Made by a program: the position numbers and the translations under genes | NCBI RefSeq assembly: GCF_013394795.1 | Contig: NZ_JABXYU010000001.1 | Coordinates: 186,001-250,000, forward strand | Length of the DNA: 64,000 bases | From: Leptotrichia sp. oral taxon 223 | GTDB lineage: Bacteria; Fusobacteriota; Fusobacteriia; Fusobacteriales; Leptotrichiaceae | Reading direction: 5' to 3' | Notes under the pieces: model-generated | What the model was told of the DNA's origin: nothing | What the model saw: the letters and a program-made list of their open reading frames with translations, nothing else | Database searches by the model: none | Part shown: positions 44,297 to 51,557 of the stretch, piece by piece | How the letters are laid out: each line of letters starts with the position of its first letter | Position numbering within the stretch: the stretch's first letter is position 1

Positions 44297-45304
44297 TTAA
44301 ATCAATTCATCCGCATTCACTTCTTCATCAAACTTAAAGTCATCATCATGCAAATGTACCACTTCCAGTGCTTTCTCATAATTCGTAGATTTTTTCGAGA
44401 AGAAATCGTGCTGTGTTGTTTCCACATTTAAACCATTTAACACAATTGGATTTACATTCTTCACTTCAAATTCTTCTTCAAATCCTAGATTCATCAAGGC
44501 TTTGTTCGCATTGTAACGGATGTATTCCTTCACATCGCCTGTAAGCCCAATATCCCCATAAATTTCATCAGTATATCTTGCTTCATTTTCGTACAAGTCG
44601 TACATCAATTTTTTCAGTTCAGCCCTCATATCAACTTTTTCCTCTTCACTGAAAGAATTATATAATTCCTGGAACAATAATCCAACAAAAACTCCGTGAA
44701 TCGACTCATCCGCAATGATTTTCTTGATTATATCGCAACTTGCAACCATTTCTCCCTGTCCTGCAAGCCAAAGCGGTAAAAAGAATCCGCTGTAAAACAA
44801 ATATGTTTCCAAATAAACCGAAGCCGCCAGAGCCATCGCTATTTCTCTTTTTGAAGCCTCAGGATTGTTCATTTTCTGATAATATCCGTCAATTTTATTA
44901 GCTTTATACTGCAAGTGCGGATTTTCCTGAACCCATCTGAATGTTTCGTTAATCTCCCTTGTAGACGCAACCGTTGTAAATATTGTTGAATAAGACTTCG
45001 CATGAATCGTTTCCATCATACACATATATGAAAGAACCGAACGATTTTGCAACGACTCAATATGATCAATAATCTTGGGCATCCCCGTATGGCTCTGCAA
45101 CGTATCCAAAAGCGTAAGCCCTCCCAACACGTGCAAATACGCCAATTTCATCGCAGGCTCAAGCGAATTCCAACTATCTATATCCTTCGACGGAATATAC
45201 TCCGTATCAATCCAAAACTGCTTCAAATTCTGCTCCCAAAACATCTCCACATAATTATTTTCCGGTGTATTCCAGTTTACTGCTTCATATATTTTTTTCT
45301 CCAT
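44297..45304 (-). CDS. nrdF: Class Ib ribonucleotide reductase, radical subunit
   Basis: 335 residues. All dimetal ligands are present: Asp67 (LTLLDTLQ), Glu98 and His101 (METIHAKSY), Glu166 (YLETYLF), Glu200 and His203 (DESIHG); the radical Tyr is Tyr105. The presence of nrdI and an nrdH-like gene in the cluster marks it as class Ib, so a Mn- or Fe-tyrosyl enzyme activated with NrdI. It is separated from nrdE by a 4.1-kb accessory island. Confidence 0.93.
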   Translation of the reverse strand: MEKKIYEAVNWNTPENNYVEMFWEQNLKQFWIDTEYIPSKDIDSWNSLEPAMKLAYLHVLGGLTLLDTLQSHTGMPKIIDHIESLQNRSVLSYMCMMETIHAKSYSTIFTTVASTREINETFRWVQENPHLQYKANKIDGYYQKMNNPEASKREIAMALAASVYLETYLFYSGFFLPLWLAGQGEMVASCDIIKKIIADESIHGVFVGLLFQELYNSFSEEEKVDMRAELKKLMYDLYENEARYTDEIYGDIGLTGDVKEYIRYNANKALMNLGFEEEFEVKNVNPIVLNGLNVETTQHDFFSKKSTNYEKALEVVHLHDDDFKFDEEVNADELI

Positions 45305-45321
45305 TTTTTTGTTTTCCTTTC

Positions 45322-45342
45322 TTGATAAAATTGTTTTATCAA
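45322..45342. promoter_or_regulatory. 9-bp perfect inverted repeat before nrdF
   Basis: TTGATAAAA, 3-bp spacer, TTTTATCAA, 18 bp upstream of the nrdF ATG. It is unlike the NrdR boxes at 52933 and could be an operator for a separate nrdF transcript or an mRNA hairpin near the ribosome site. Confidence 0.45.
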
Positions 45343-45382
45343 TTTATATTATCTCAATCAACTCCCACATTTTATATAAAAT

Positions 45383-45808
45383 TTAGAATAGTTCACTATG
45401 ACTACCTGATGCTAATAAAATCAACATTAATTTATCTTCAACTATCTCGTAGATTAATAACCAATCTGGAGTTATATGACATTCTCTTGCCCCGTCATAA
45501 TTATTGACTAATTTATGATCCTTGTTTTTAATCTTCTCCCAAGACATCTTTAAACATTTCTTCTGGACTACTGTACGATTTATAATTTGAAGGATTTTTC
45601 TTAATTTTTTAGCTTCTTCAAATGCTTGAGCCAATTCTGAATTTTCAGGTAAAGAATTTATATAAAATGGTATGCCTTTTTCTCTTATAGCTTGTTTTAA
45701 AAATATATTAATTGCTGCACTAAGGCTTAATCCTAAATCTTTAAATAATTTCTGTGCTTCTTTTTTAGTTTCTTCATCTATTTTTATACTTGTATTAACT
45801 GTTGCCAT
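45383..45808 (-). pseudogene. Decayed DinJ/YafQ-type toxin-antitoxin pair, merged into one frame
   Basis: The first 70 residues are a RelB/DinJ antitoxin (TVNTSIKIDEETKKEAQKLF; LGLSLSAAINIFLKQAIREK). At an A5 run (45594-45598) the natural ending is in the neighbouring frame (NPSNYKSYSSPEEMFKDVLG then ED-stop). Beyond it the last 45 residues are the C-terminal half of a YafQ-type RNase (DGARECHITPDWLLIYEIVE; GSHSELF). The toxin lacks its N-terminal half. So the antitoxin is frameshifted and the toxin truncated; the long frame is a by-product. Start after AAAAGGAAGTGATATTTT. Confidence 0.75.
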
Positions 45809-45883
45809 AAAATATCACTTCCTTTTATATTTATTATACATACAAAGTATATCTTTTGTCAATCAATTAGTTTATCATAATGT

Positions 45884-46741
45884 CTATTTATCCCAATCTC
45901 TTGGAAAGTCCCTCTCTGTTTCTGGATAATCCTGAAATCTCTTTTGATAAACTTCTTTCGGATTAATTCCATTCTTTTTTAAATATTCTTCAAACTTCAT
46001 TTTTGTATCTTCATCAAAATATTTATAATACATCCAAAAAGTATTTTCAACACTCTTTTCTATAAAATCAGCAAGCAACTCGTAATTTGATTCAACTTGT
46101 GCTGTTTCCAAAGCAGTATAGTATTCATCTCTGTCTTCATTTCGTATAACTATAATCGGATAACCATTTTTCATAAGCTCCAAATTCAGGAGTAATCTCC
46201 CAGTCCGTCCATTACCATCAATAAATGGATGAATCTTTTCAAAATCAGCATGAAAATGAGCAACCCTCATTATCAAATCATTATTTTCACTACTATTAAA
46301 TTTTTCAATTAATTCTGTCAGCTTCTCTTCAACAAGATAGTAAGGCGTCGTTTCAAATCCAGCACCCAAAATTTCATTATTACTTTTCTTAAACTTTCCT
46401 CTATTCTCAATATCATCATTCAATACAAGAGCATGAAACTCTCTTATCAACCTCAGCGATAAAGATTCATTTGTTTTTATAACTTCCTTGAGAAAATTAA
46501 GAGCATATTCCTGCCCCTTCACTTCCTCATGTTCTTTCAAACTTTTCCCTTTCACAGTAACCCCATATTGAAGAATAATATCCGTTTCTTTCAAAGTAAG
46601 AGTGCTACCTTCAATCGCATTTGAATTATAAATAAAATTTGTTTTAAGATTGTTTTCCAATTTTGTCAAAATCCCCTTGTTTAAGGGGCTTTCTTTTTCT
46701 AAAAAGTTTTTGAAAATTTCAATTTTAGATATTTTAAACAT
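45884..46741 (-). CDS. Fic-family protein (AMP transferase), self-inhibited class II
   Basis: 285 residues. The Fic active-site motif is intact: KIHPFIDGNGRTGRLL (residues about 170-184). An N-terminal inhibitory helix motif YNSNAIEGSTLTL (S/T-x3-E-G) precedes it, as in class II Fic proteins, so activity is held off in cis. The Fic core includes GAGFETTPYYLVEE as target-docking flap. A short C-terminal extension ends RDFPRDWDK. Fic proteins transfer AMP to target proteins and act as toxins or regulators. It stands in the accessory island with other mobile-type genes. Confidence 0.9.
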   Translation of the reverse strand: MFKISKIEIFKNFLEKESPLNKGILTKLENNLKTNFIYNSNAIEGSTLTLKETDIILQYGVTVKGKSLKEHEEVKGQEYALNFLKEVIKTNESLSLRLIREFHALVLNDDIENRGKFKKSNNEILGAGFETTPYYLVEEKLTELIEKFNSSENNDLIMRVAHFHADFEKIHPFIDGNGRTGRLLLNLELMKNGYPIIVIRNEDRDEYYTALETAQVESNYELLADFIEKSVENTFWMYYKYFDEDTKMKFEEYLKKNGINPKEVYQKRFQDYPETERDFPRDWDK

Positions 46742-46766
46742 TTTTTTATTTCTTCCTTCTTTTCAA

Positions 46767-47183
46767 CTATCTAATCATTTGTTTTAATTTTCTTTCATTA
46801 TTCAATAATTTACTTAAATATTGATTTTCACTTTCAGTTTTATTTAATTTTCCTTCAAGTCTTTCTATTTCTACCTCATATTCATCTAATAATTTTTCAT
46901 AATTAGATACTTCATTTATCAATAATTCTTTTTGGTTTATAAAATGTTCTGCCTGTGATAATAATTTTTCTTCATATTCTTTTGAAGCATCTACGTAACC
47001 CTGTTTTTTACCTTCGTATTTACCCATATTATAAATATTTGATACAATTGGAGTATCTTCAAGATCTTCTCTTACAGTTCTTTTCAATCCATTTTTTATA
47101 CTTCCTTCTTCAATTATATTTTTTGTAGTGTCAATTATCCTAACAATCGAGTTAGTTCTTCGTAAAAATCTACCTATTCCCAT
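46767..47183 (-). CDS. Small coiled-coil partner of an unrecognised two-gene operon
   Basis: 138 residues. Basic N-terminus (MGIGRFLRRTNSIVRIIDTT), a middle with EDTPIVSNIYNMGKYEGKKQ and then about 75 residues of coiled coil (INEVSNYEKLLDEYEVEIER). The ATG overlaps the stop of the upstream gene (TAATG) and its ribosome site GGAGG lies inside that gene, so the two are translationally coupled. No known family recognised. Confidence 0.65.
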   Translation of the reverse strand: MGIGRFLRRTNSIVRIIDTTKNIIEEGSIKNGLKRTVREDLEDTPIVSNIYNMGKYEGKKQGYVDASKEYEEKLLSQAEHFINQKELLINEVSNYEKLLDEYEVEIERLEGKLNKTESENQYLSKLLNNERKLKQMIR

Positions 47184-48448
47184 TATTCTATTTCCTCCAA
47201 ATTTAATTTATCTCCTTTTATCATATCCTTAAACCCATTTAGAACAAATTCTTCTTTTATTTTTTGAATATATCTTGTATCATAAATCAAATGATATAAT
47301 GTTACTAATAATCCTCCTATATCTAAATCTTTTATGGCTTTTTCATTTCCAGAGTACATATTAGCCCCTACCCATATTACATTACTTGAAGAAGCAATTA
47401 AATTAGAATATAAAATTATTTTCTTTGTTTTTACATTATACAGTTCTCTTGATGAATATTTTTGTTCATCATATAATAAATTATGAAAAACTGTTATAAT
47501 ATTATTTATTAATTCGGATATTTTCGCTGAAAATTCTATTTTAATAAAATCACCTGTGCTAATATATCTAGTAAATTTTTCTGTTTCTTTATTAGATAAA
47601 ACTAAATTTGCTCCTGGAATTTGAATACCACAAGGAGTATATAAATCTGTGCCTATATGAATAATTTGTTTTATTAATGAAGCAACAAAAACTTTAGGAT
47701 CGTCAATTGTTCTTTTAACAGACTGATTAAACATCTCTAAAGTAGAAGCATTTTTACCTATACTTGGATTTTTGTATAAACTAGTATAAACAACATGATT
47801 TGTTTTTATAATTGGTAACACCCCTTCTTTTTTCACACTTGTTATTGTATTTGTCATTATGTTAGCCGTACCAAAAATTAATCCCAATATAGGATCATGC
47901 CCTAATGTTGCAAATCTATGATTAGCACCTTTAAAAATTTTTAAATTTTCTGTTTTTAAATCATTTGGATCAAAATTCCATGTATGTCCTTTATTAAGAT
48001 ACAATTCTATTGTTTTATCATTTAAATATCTTGTTGCATCATATGGAACTCCCAATGTTGTAATTATATGTTTTAAAGAAGAATAATACGGCTTTTCTGT
48101 ATTATTATTTTGAATCAAATCTTTATTAAGTATTTTATTTTGCATTTCATGAAGTTTATGCTCTTTTTTATTTTCAACTCCAGCTTTTTCTATTTTTGTT
48201 AACATATTTATTATTATTATTCTAGAAAGTTGTAGAGCAGTTGCAAGAAAAAGAAATGAAACATCTACTCCATTTAATCCTGTTTGTTTACTAAATTCAT
48301 TTTCCAAATCATTTATTAGATATTCAGCATTGTGTGCTACTTTCGCAACTCTATGATTTTCTTTTATAATTATATTCATATCTCTATTTACTTTTTCTAT
48401 ATTTTCCTTTAATTTTTTTCGTTTGACTCTTAAATCTTCAAGCGACAC
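47183..48448 (-). CDS. Unrecognised 421-aa protein, main gene of a two-gene operon
   Basis: Starts at GTG 48448 after AAAGGAGACAAAAA (an ATG 21 bp earlier lacks a ribosome site). An N-terminal coiled coil (RKKLKENIEKVNRDMNIIIK) precedes a hydrophobic helix (VSFLFLATALQLSRIIIINM). A conserved-looking core has RFATLGHDPILGLIFGTANI and TCCGIQ-like loop LYTPCGIQIPGANLVLS; the C-terminal part is helical with NLIASSSNVIWVGANMYSGN. No catalytic motif of a known nuclease or kinase is apparent. Placement among Fic, toxin-antitoxin and PIN-like genes suggests a conflict (defence or toxin) role, by context only. Confidence 0.68.
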   Translation of the reverse strand: MSLEDLRVKRKKLKENIEKVNRDMNIIIKENHRVAKVAHNAEYLINDLENEFSKQTGLNGVDVSFLFLATALQLSRIIIINMLTKIEKAGVENKKEHKLHEMQNKILNKDLIQNNNTEKPYYSSLKHIITTLGVPYDATRYLNDKTIELYLNKGHTWNFDPNDLKTENLKIFKGANHRFATLGHDPILGLIFGTANIMTNTITSVKKEGVLPIIKTNHVVYTSLYKNPSIGKNASTLEMFNQSVKRTIDDPKVFVASLIKQIIHIGTDLYTPCGIQIPGANLVLSNKETEKFTRYISTGDFIKIEFSAKISELINNIITVFHNLLYDEQKYSSRELYNVKTKKIILYSNLIASSSNVIWVGANMYSGNEKAIKDLDIGGLLVTLYHLIYDTRYIQKIKEEFVLNGFKDMIKGDKLNLEEIE

Positions 48449-48515
48449 TTTTTGTCTCCTTTGTATCATCTATCGTTATTAAACAAAAATAAATATTGAG
48501 GTTTTTATTAAACTT

Positions 48516-49423
48516 TTAAATTGATACGACTAAGTTATAAATCTCTTCATAGGTTAATTCTTGTATATCATTAAATTTTAGGATAGTGTAGTTATCATGT
48601 TTCTTTACCTTTGTATATCCTAATTTCAAAAATTCTTCTATCATACGTTTGTCTTGTGTTAAAATATGAGCGTCTAAATAATTAGTAGATAAAAATCCTA
48701 AATCAAAAAAATCATTTTTTCTATCTCCTATATTTTGATTTTCTAAAATTTTTGCTATAATTCTTAAATATCCCACAGAATATAATATTTTTTCTTTTTT
48801 TGAAAGAAATTCATGTTCTTTTGCGACAAAAAATTGTTCCATCTTTTGAAAAAATATTTCTTTTTTTACATTTTCAATATCTTCAATTCCATATATTTTT
48901 AATTTCTCATAAAATTCTTTTATTAATTCTATTTCGTCTTTTCTGTTTTTTAAATTATAGTATTTTGTTTCAAAATTTTTAAATTCTTTTTCTATAAGAT
49001 CAATTTTTTTATTATTTTTTTCTCTATTATTGATTGAATCACTGAAAAAATATATAAAATATTTTTTAATTCTATATATTTTTTTAATTTTATATATTTT
49101 TCAGAATTATCTGTTTTTAAGAGCTCATTAACTGAAAAATAGTTTATACTATCTTGACGACTTATCATTTCCATTTCAGTTGGCAATACTTTTACATGTT
49201 TTAAAAGTTTTAATGTTTCTATCCCATCTCTAGTTTTATTGTTTTTTAATTCAATTGCTGTTAAGCTAGATACATAAATTTCATAATTACTACTCAATCT
49301 AGATAAGCTTTTTTTAAAATTTTCTTCATTTGATTTATAGTTACGTAAAAAATTAGTATCCAAAAATAAATATGTTTTTCCTTTAAATTTTTTTCTTTTC
49401 ATCGATTTTATTTTTCTTACCAC
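48516..49423 (-). pseudogene. PIN-like nuclease gene split by a frameshift in an A7 run
   Basis: Upstream part: GTG 49423 (after GGAGG) or ATG 49402, with KTYLFLDTNFLRNYKSNEEN, a PIN-domain first strand with its Asp, down to TAG at 48992. At the A7 run (49004-49010) the -1 frame continues without a stop (DLIEKEFKNFETKYYNLKNR) into the downstream frame that ends with FFDLGFLSTNYLDAHILTQD, the acidic end of a PIN-like fold. One added A restores a single product of about 300 residues. The heptamer is A AAA AAA, also suited to -1 slippage. Domain identity is from motif reading. Confidence 0.65.
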
Positions 49424-49457
49424 TTTAAATAAACCTCCTCTATTATCATTCTCCCAA

Positions 49458-51557
49458 CTACACCGAACATGATATACACTCCTCAATAGTCGCCTTCCTA
49501 GTTCGAGTATAATAAAGCGACTTCAACCCCAGCCTATGTGCATAAATATAAAGTCTAGCCAAATCTCTAGTGCTGTCTGTACTCTTTGTATACAAAATAG
49601 TCGAAATTCCTTGATCTACGTGTCTTTGAATTACAGAAATTAGTTTCAAGATATTTTTTTGATCCATATCGTATGCTGACTTATAGAAGAAGTAGTTGTC
49701 GTTTGTTAGGTACGGCATTGGGTAGAAAGTTGTGCTGTCTCCATATTCTCTTACTTCGATTGTGTCAACTACTGGCATTACTGAGGCTGTCGAGTTCATT
49801 ATGTAGGATGTTGACTGGTTTGGGGCGATTGCCATTCGGTAGGCGTTGTAGACTCCGTGTTTCATTACTTGCTCTTTTAGGTTTGCCCAGTCTTCTTTTG
49901 TTGGGATGTGGATTCCTTCAAATAGCTGTTTTATTTTTTCTGTTTGTGGCATGTATTCTTTTGTAATGTATTTGTCAAAATAGTTTCCGTTGGCGTATTC
50001 AGATTTTTCAAAGTCCTTGAAAGTTTCGCCTTTTTCTTTTGCAATTTCCATTGAACGTTCTAATGAATAGAAGTTTACCATCATAAAGAATACGTTACAG
50101 AAGTCAAGTGCTTCCTTGCTTTCGTACATAATAAAGTTTTTAGCCAAGTATCCGTGCAGGTTCATTGCTCCCAGCCCTACTGAGTGCAGTTCTTCGTTCG
50201 CTTTTTTTATTGACGGAACAATATCAATGTTTGTCAAGTCTGATACCATTGTAAGTGAATCAATTGCTGCTTTTGTGGCTTCTTTTATTCTTTTGTTTTC
50301 CATTACTGTAGCAATATTTAATGAACCTAAATTACATGAAATTCCACGTCTTATCGTGTCTTCCTCATAATATGCGTTAATGTCTGAAACTTCTGATAAT
50401 TGCATAATTTCAGTACATAGATTTGAGAACTTAACTGTTCCAATTTCTTTTAATGCGTGTTCCTTATTTGCATTGTCTTTAAAGAATAAATACGGGTATC
50501 CACTTTCTTTTTGAGTTTGAGAAATTTTTACAAGTAGTTCCCTTGCGTTTATTTTTTTCTTTTTAACATTTGGATTATCAACCAGTTTTTCATACATTTC
50601 GTTCATATCCATTTCATCCAGATATTGTCCATATTCTAGGAATACTGTGTGTGGATTAAACGTGTAGCAAACTTCATCTTCCATTGCCAATTGCATAAAT
50701 TTATCTGGAACAATAACTCCGATTGACAATGATTTTATCCTGATTTTTTCATCTACATTTATTTTTTTACTATCCAAAAATTCATTAATATCAGAATGGA
50801 AAACATTCAAATAAACCGCTCCAGCTCCAGCTCTTTGCCCCAGCTGATTTGCATACGAAAAAATATCCTCTAAAATCTTCATAATCGGCAAAACTCCAGA
50901 AGCTCTGCCTTCCACTCCTTTTATAGCTTCCCCTCTTGCCCTGATTTTAGAGAGGTTTATCGAAACTCCTCCACCAATCGAAGAAAGTTTCATAGATGAA
51001 TCAAAAATATACCCGATTCCGCTCAAATTATCCCCCATTTCATCAAGAAAGCAGGAAACAAGTTCCCCAGAACGTTTTTTCCCAGAATTCAAAAAAGTAG
51101 GAGTAGCTGGCTGATATTCTTGATTTATCAACATCAAGGCATATTCTTTCGCCTTCTCAGCATTCCCCTGTGCCAAGTACAGCGAAACCGTTGCAATCCT
51201 GTCTTCATATCTTTCCAAAAATTTCTCCCCAGAATCATCCATCAAAGCATAACTTTGATAAAATTTCGATGCACTCATAAACGAAGCAAACCTGAACTTT
51301 TTATCATAAACCAGCTTAAACACTTCCTTTATCTCATCATGGCTATACATCTCATAAAAATCAATATAATAATCATTTTTTATCAAATATCTCATCTTTT
51401 CCTCAAGGTTATGAAAAAACACCGTATTTTTGTTCACATAATCCACAAAATACGAATAAACAGCTTCCTTATCCTTTTCAAGCTGAAAATCTTCCCCTTT
51501 TTTTACCATTATCTCGTTATTTAAGTATATCCATTTTTTTGCTCTTTTATCTACCAT
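49458..51557 (-). CDS. nrdE: Class Ib ribonucleotide reductase, catalytic subunit
   Basis: 699 residues, the length of NrdE. Active-site regions are present: substrate-site Cys in GELVSCFLDEMGDNLSG, the radical loop FSNLCTEI with Cys, GISCNLGSLN with the second Cys, and the Tyr-Tyr pair in LKSLYYTRTRK. The C-terminal redox Cys pair is ECISC-SV. No N-terminal ATP cone, as in class Ib. Reduces ribonucleoside diphosphates with NrdF; NrdH supplies electrons. Start after ATAGGAGAAGATT. Confidence 0.95.
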   Translation of the reverse strand: MVDKRAKKWIYLNNEIMVKKGEDFQLEKDKEAVYSYFVDYVNKNTVFFHNLEEKMRYLIKNDYYIDFYEMYSHDEIKEVFKLVYDKKFRFASFMSASKFYQSYALMDDSGEKFLERYEDRIATVSLYLAQGNAEKAKEYALMLINQEYQPATPTFLNSGKKRSGELVSCFLDEMGDNLSGIGYIFDSSMKLSSIGGGVSINLSKIRARGEAIKGVEGRASGVLPIMKILEDIFSYANQLGQRAGAGAVYLNVFHSDINEFLDSKKINVDEKIRIKSLSIGVIVPDKFMQLAMEDEVCYTFNPHTVFLEYGQYLDEMDMNEMYEKLVDNPNVKKKKINARELLVKISQTQKESGYPYLFFKDNANKEHALKEIGTVKFSNLCTEIMQLSEVSDINAYYEEDTIRRGISCNLGSLNIATVMENKRIKEATKAAIDSLTMVSDLTNIDIVPSIKKANEELHSVGLGAMNLHGYLAKNFIMYESKEALDFCNVFFMMVNFYSLERSMEIAKEKGETFKDFEKSEYANGNYFDKYITKEYMPQTEKIKQLFEGIHIPTKEDWANLKEQVMKHGVYNAYRMAIAPNQSTSYIMNSTASVMPVVDTIEVREYGDSTTFYPMPYLTNDNYFFYKSAYDMDQKNILKLISVIQRHVDQGISTILYTKSTDSTRDLARLYIYAHRLGLKSLYYTRTRKATIEECISCSV

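Follow-up and report, generated by a model that had tools for sequence, protein, structure and literature searches.

A minimal two-gene relative of Bunzi as a putative defence module between nrdA and nrdB in Leptotrichia

The defence system Bunzi is composed of BnzA and BnzB (Millman et al. 2022, as listed in PMC10952713); TerB is its hallmark domain, as reported in PMC10952713, and its mechanism is given as unknown (PMC12926258). In the window, that is, the whole stretch of 64,000 nucleotides from Leptotrichia sp. oral taxon 223 analysed here, two adjoining genes encode proteins of 421 and 138 residues, the larger of which matches the PADLOC model of BnzB over residues 104–411 (E value, 2e-26); the match begins at position 193 of the 504 in the profile, leaving about the first 190 positions unmatched. 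Genuine BnzB proteins score far more strongly (1e-136 to 1e-150, against 2e-26 for the window protein), and the identity between the large protein and BnzB from the same genus is 25%. Because a strong BnzB (E value, about 1e-136) is present in three species of the genus, and a second BnzB-like copy, 49% identical to the window protein, in its own genome, the window protein is to be placed on a divergent branch rather than among the orthologues; in the tree it groups with BnzB-like relatives, the genuine BnzB sequences being on long branches. Judged from its sequence, the large protein is distantly homologous to BnzB, and the pair therefore belongs to a known kind of defence system. The preliminary description had called the pair unrecognised, which is no longer tenable for the large protein but holds insofar as the pair is not Bunzi itself: the Bunzi kind was already known, and the minimal two-gene variant is new.

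Like Bunzi, the window pair follows a two-gene logic in a defence-island setting, and its large protein is homologous over the conserved core of BnzB, with all eight invariant residues described below in common. In contrast to Bunzi, it contains neither BnzA nor TerB, and the partner is a coiled-coil protein of 138 residues. No BnzA was found in 13 genomes of the genus, the 138-residue partner did not match the BnzA model, and TerB matched neither window protein. As a positive control, the same BnzA model detected BnzA of a Lactococcus plasmid (E value, 1.6e-129) as well as BnzA-like proteins in the genomes G098, G100, G101, and G103. Plain membership in Bunzi was thus tested and rejected, and the window pair should not be filed under that name, since BnzA was not found. 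The two-gene form with no detectable BnzA occurs in three lineages, namely in the window and its sister species (G008), in Clostridium paridis (L028), and in a Treponema (L031); in the Clostridium and the Treponema, the pair is preceded by a WYL regulator.

The two coupled open reading frames joined by TAATG, as proposed in the preliminary description, are borne out, with strong Shine–Dalgarno sites. The BnzB-like gene lies at positions 47183–48448 and the partner gene at 46767–47183, both on the minus strand, with a one-base overlap. The longest open reading frame of the large gene has 428 codons (47183–48469) and starts with ATG at 48469; the GTG at 48448, giving 421 residues, is the better start, because the AAAGGAG ribosome-binding site (48457–48463, minus strand), equally spaced in the sister species, is well placed and because in G008 stop codons break the frame upstream of the corresponding GTG. 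Residues are numbered here by the 428-residue reading, from which 7 is subtracted for numbering from the GTG. For the partner gene, the ribosome-binding site is GGAGG (47194–47198, minus strand), situated within the 3′ end of the BnzB-like gene and about 10 nucleotides before the partner's ATG. Between the window and G008, the large protein is 88% and the small protein 93% identical, and the dN/dS values against the sister species (0.28 for the large gene, 0.27 for the small gene) indicate that both genes are maintained by purifying selection. These values, together with conservation in unrelated lineages, confirm that the pair is real beyond chance. Its G+C content (24.5%, compared with 35–38% for nrdA and nrdB) fits horizontal arrival.

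Two sister loci (L027 and L029) have the same gene order with overlapping genes, and their large and small proteins are about 53–61% identical to those of the window; they differ from the window in an extra upstream protein, which has the BnzA N-terminal domain and the coiled-coil tail shared with the small protein. L027 thereby comprises a WYL regulator followed by BnzA-like, BnzB-like, and small proteins. The upstream BnzA-like gene of these loci, missing from the window, and the broken state of the PIN and YafQ genes adjoining the pair would suit the decay of a larger Bunzi-like operon into a non-functional remnant after loss of its BnzA-like gene. We nevertheless consider such decay very improbable, for both genes are intact and under purifying selection, and the identical two-gene form is found in three lineages.

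In L027, L028, L029, and L031, the gene immediately following the BnzB-like gene encodes a homologue of the small protein (46–56% identity), in agreement with the expectation that the two genes would co-occur elsewhere. Full-length small proteins were found only adjoining the large gene, in 4 of the 15 genomes holding the latter, and none was found in plasmids and viral contigs. The distances among large and among small proteins correlate with r = 0.95, for a small sample of six loci. A C-terminal module of the partner (residues 52–134; 46782–47030, minus strand) has its homologue in the C-terminal tail of the upstream protein in L027, L029, L030, and L032, the N-terminal domain of which matches BnzA (E value, 3.6e-15). 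From this shared tail and the BnzA-matching domain, it follows that the partner is the counterpart of a BnzA-like protein's coiled-coil tail.

Eight residues of the large protein, Asp144, His184, His191, Pro193, Gly196, His271, Asp275, and Pro285, are invariant in all 41 sequences of an alignment that was widened from 27 members and includes genuine BnzB. Five of the eight are Asp or His, in the order D...H-x6-H...HxxxD...P: Asp144 (Asp137 from the GTG; 48038–48040, minus strand), His184 and His191 within HRFATLGH (His177 and His184 from the GTG; 47897–47920, minus strand), and His271 and Asp275 within HIGTD (His264 and Asp268 from the GTG; 47645–47659, minus strand), followed by Pro285 of the motif TPxGIQxPG (47615–47617, minus strand). 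The core sequence of the large protein is LGHDPILGLIFGTANI. The AlphaFold model of the large protein is confident (mean pLDDT, 86–87) and consists largely of helices, with one small beta insert, and in this model His271 and Asp275 stand four residues apart on a single predicted helix (residues 258–276). We infer that the five Asp and His residues form a putative metal site, although the invariant residues could instead be structural. The absence of a familiar enzyme motif, as previously noted, stands insofar as no classical enzyme domain is present, but has to be qualified by this invariant set. None of Pfam, NCBIfam, and PHROGs matched the large protein convincingly, nor did sequence searches of the PDB; weak Pfam matches (Arcadin_1, PglZ, CodY HTH) were discarded as chance hits, being below the cut-off and absent from most relatives. 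Fold searches with the full model and with the core alone matched no solved or viral fold, and no phospholipase C, P1 nuclease, or other enzyme stood out; the best Z scores, 6.8 for the full model and 7.2 for the core, were to helical bundles, and the Foldseek E values exceeded 0.09.

The order of the invariant residues invites comparison with the YdjM family, which has been linked to the phospholipase C alpha-toxin and S1-P1 nuclease domains (PMC8557891). Both YdjM and the BnzB-like family present the order D...HR...H...HxxxD...P; a loose pattern of this form, drawn post hoc after both families had been seen, matches all 50 BnzB-like proteins, 11 of 12 YdjM proteins, and 4 of 366 other open reading frames (about 1%), one of the four being Lactococcus BnzB itself. 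As to the all-alpha fold of the superfamily, the model of the large protein is mainly helical, its best Z score being on helical bundles, and YdjM itself is without a solved relative by sequence. YdjM differs from the BnzB-like proteins in spacing and size, hhalign between the two families gave a probability of 0.6–1.4% with equally high scores in 3 of 200 column shuffles, and the Pfam YdjM family (PF04307) was not among the matches listed for 27 members at E values up to 10. Homology of the BnzB-like family to YdjM was therefore considered but is unproven, and we do not claim it.

The presence of a long N-terminal helix or coiled coil and one hydrophobic helix, anticipated from the sequence, is reproduced by the helix at residues 10–46 (48332–48442, minus strand; AlphaFold, mean pLDDT 86.7) and by the single strong Kyte–Doolittle peak (1.85) at residues 72–90; long helices or coiled coils are indeed found in both proteins. 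We propose, with about even confidence, a minimal anti-phage module related to Bunzi, in which the effector resembles a metal-dependent hydrolase; this confidence leaves the substrate aside. In the predicted mechanism, the BnzB-like protein with its mainly helical domain would be the effector core, in which Asp144, His184, His191, His271, and Asp275 would bind a metal for hydrolysis. The 138-residue coiled-coil protein would bind it, probably through the long N-terminal helix of the effector, and so keep it assembled and inactive. Infection would then release or activate the effector, which would attack a host target, with membrane phospholipid as a first guess, so that the infected cell stops. 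Formation of a complex by the two proteins appears likely; its location at the membrane, as previously suggested, is hypothetical, there being only one clear hydrophobic helix. That the BnzB-like protein is a metal-dependent enzyme is the somewhat favoured view, and abortive infection seems, to a similar degree, the more plausible mode of action of the pair; phospholipid as the substrate, by comparison, is rather doubtful. The proposal is based on the BnzB homology, the Bunzi-linked relatives, the TerB fusions, the partner tail shared with BnzA-like proteins, the recurrence of the pair in three lineages with correlated distances, the hotspot, the WYL regulators, the purifying selection, and the eight invariant residues; the lack of a matching solved or viral fold, the weak YdjM comparison, and a possible structural role of the invariant residues count against it.

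The BnzB-like relatives span Bacillota, Spirochaetota, Actinomycetota, Lactococcus plasmids including pNP40, and phage or viral contigs, and a scan of viral sequences with Lactococcus BnzB as the query gave no match. Their partners vary. In homologues from Actinomycetota and Clostridia (L034, L037, L041, L044), the core is fused behind a weak but consistent TerB match, and another relative is accompanied by a WYL regulator and a dynamin (L021). Two Lactococcus plasmid loci share with the window a homologous large protein, with a WYL regulator upstream of it, but at 30–31% identity and with other partners: in L022 the BnzB-like gene stands beside a complete Bunzi pair (BnzA, E value, 5e-128; BnzB, 2.7e-150), and in L023, on the phage-resistance plasmid pNP40 (PMC8194271, PMC6458302), it is found with a WYL regulator and a protein containing EF-Tu domain 3. 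The latter partner (L023:10233-11693) ends in this domain (PF03143, 7e-23) and is possibly an EF-Tu-linked mimic or sensor. WYL regulators precede five relatives, and one that is split into two pieces precedes a sixth; such regulators, in the form of the BrxR family, are found together with defence systems (PMC9122601). The second BnzB-like locus in the window's own genome (L006:7146-14406) comprises an upstream SoFic-like Fic gene, the BnzB-like gene, a gene for a 601-residue protein matching no known family, and one for an OLD-type AAA ATPase, and is a candidate for a further defence operon. Elsewhere in the genus, strong BnzB is accompanied by PDC-M09A-like and DUF697 genes (L016:3848-9496 and L018:3234-6996), and in L016 also by an IRG-like GTPase; neither locus has a detectable BnzA.

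The BnzB core is thus found with several partner types. Three other readings stand beside the preferred one. One, tentative and on balance unlikely, is that BnzB-like proteins constitute a superfamily of metal-dependent hydrolases, distantly akin to YdjM and phospholipase C, and at the same time serve as the swappable effector core of Bunzi, of the two-gene minimal and the TerB-fused single-gene types, and of those with dynamin, OLD-ATPase, or EF-Tu-domain partners. Unlikely too is a defence of the Bunzi type whose BnzB-like core acts as a sensor or scaffold rather than an enzyme, leaving the damage to another, trans-acting partner such as a BnzA-like or membrane protein. Genuine Bunzi does have BnzA, the fold of the large protein is without a known enzyme match, and pairing with many different partners is what a shared sensor would show; yet no BnzA lies beside the pair in the window, the sister species, Clostridium paridis, or the Treponema, and the strict Asp and His invariance is better suited to catalysis or metal binding. 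The third reading, a toxin–antitoxin-like pair, would make the large protein a growth-arresting toxin and the small one its proteinaceous antitoxin, with phage protection secondary or absent; the overlap of the genes, the occurrence of the full-length small protein only beside the large one, and the toxin–antitoxin and Fic genes adjoining the pair are in its favour. We hold it to be unlikely and rank it below the defence reading: the large protein has homologues that lack the small one and have BnzA-like, dynamin, or OLD-ATPase partners instead or are fused to TerB, a variety that looks like the modularity of defence systems rather than of toxin–antitoxin pairs, and searches of Pfam and NCBIfam assigned neither protein to a known toxin or antitoxin family. 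The significance of the family assembled here is that it pares Bunzi down to two genes and points to five invariant Asp and His residues that can be mutated, so that the role of BnzB can be tested directly.

The pair lies in a variable, defence-rich cargo interval (45305–49457) between nrdB (44297–45304) and nrdA (49458–51557). Each of the 13 species of the genus has changing cargo in this interval (about 1.5–5.7 kb; window 44297–51557 and L094–L104), including Abi_2/AbiD, AbiH, a type II methyltransferase, Fic, RelB/YafQ, a PDC-M09B-like protein, and a SMODS-associated NUDIX protein, and the pair itself is present in 2 of the 13 species. The defence-island setting that had been suspected is thus a true hotspot for defence genes, revealed here as varying between species. 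The Fic, toxin–antitoxin, and PIN-like neighbours named at the outset are all there, as Fic, RelB/YafQ, and PIN, except that the PIN gene is frameshifted. The Fic gene adjoining the pair (45884–46741, minus strand; PADLOC PDC-S04, 3.5e-45; SoFic, 3.6e-31) is separate hotspot cargo, and Fic occurs in the same interval of other species that do not have the pair. In the PIN-like gene (48516–49486), which lies in a stretch of 21% G+C, a frameshift splits the reading frame in two, and the gene is probably a pseudogene. At 45383–45808, RelB is fused to a truncated YafQ; as the YafQ reading frame is longer in other species, the RelB/YafQ pair looks broken by a deletion. A perfect sigma-70 consensus (45862–45833) precedes it. 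Three further cargo proteins of 461 (L096:7252-8637), 816 (L097:1114-3564), and 573 residues (L094:2870-4591), which matched no Pfam or PADLOC family, are candidates for unknown defence genes. Finally, in two sister species nrdA contains an intein with a LAGLIDADG homing domain (L099:5541-8645 and L103:2519-5623; 1034 versus 699 residues), and this intein-bearing nrdA directly adjoins the hotspot.
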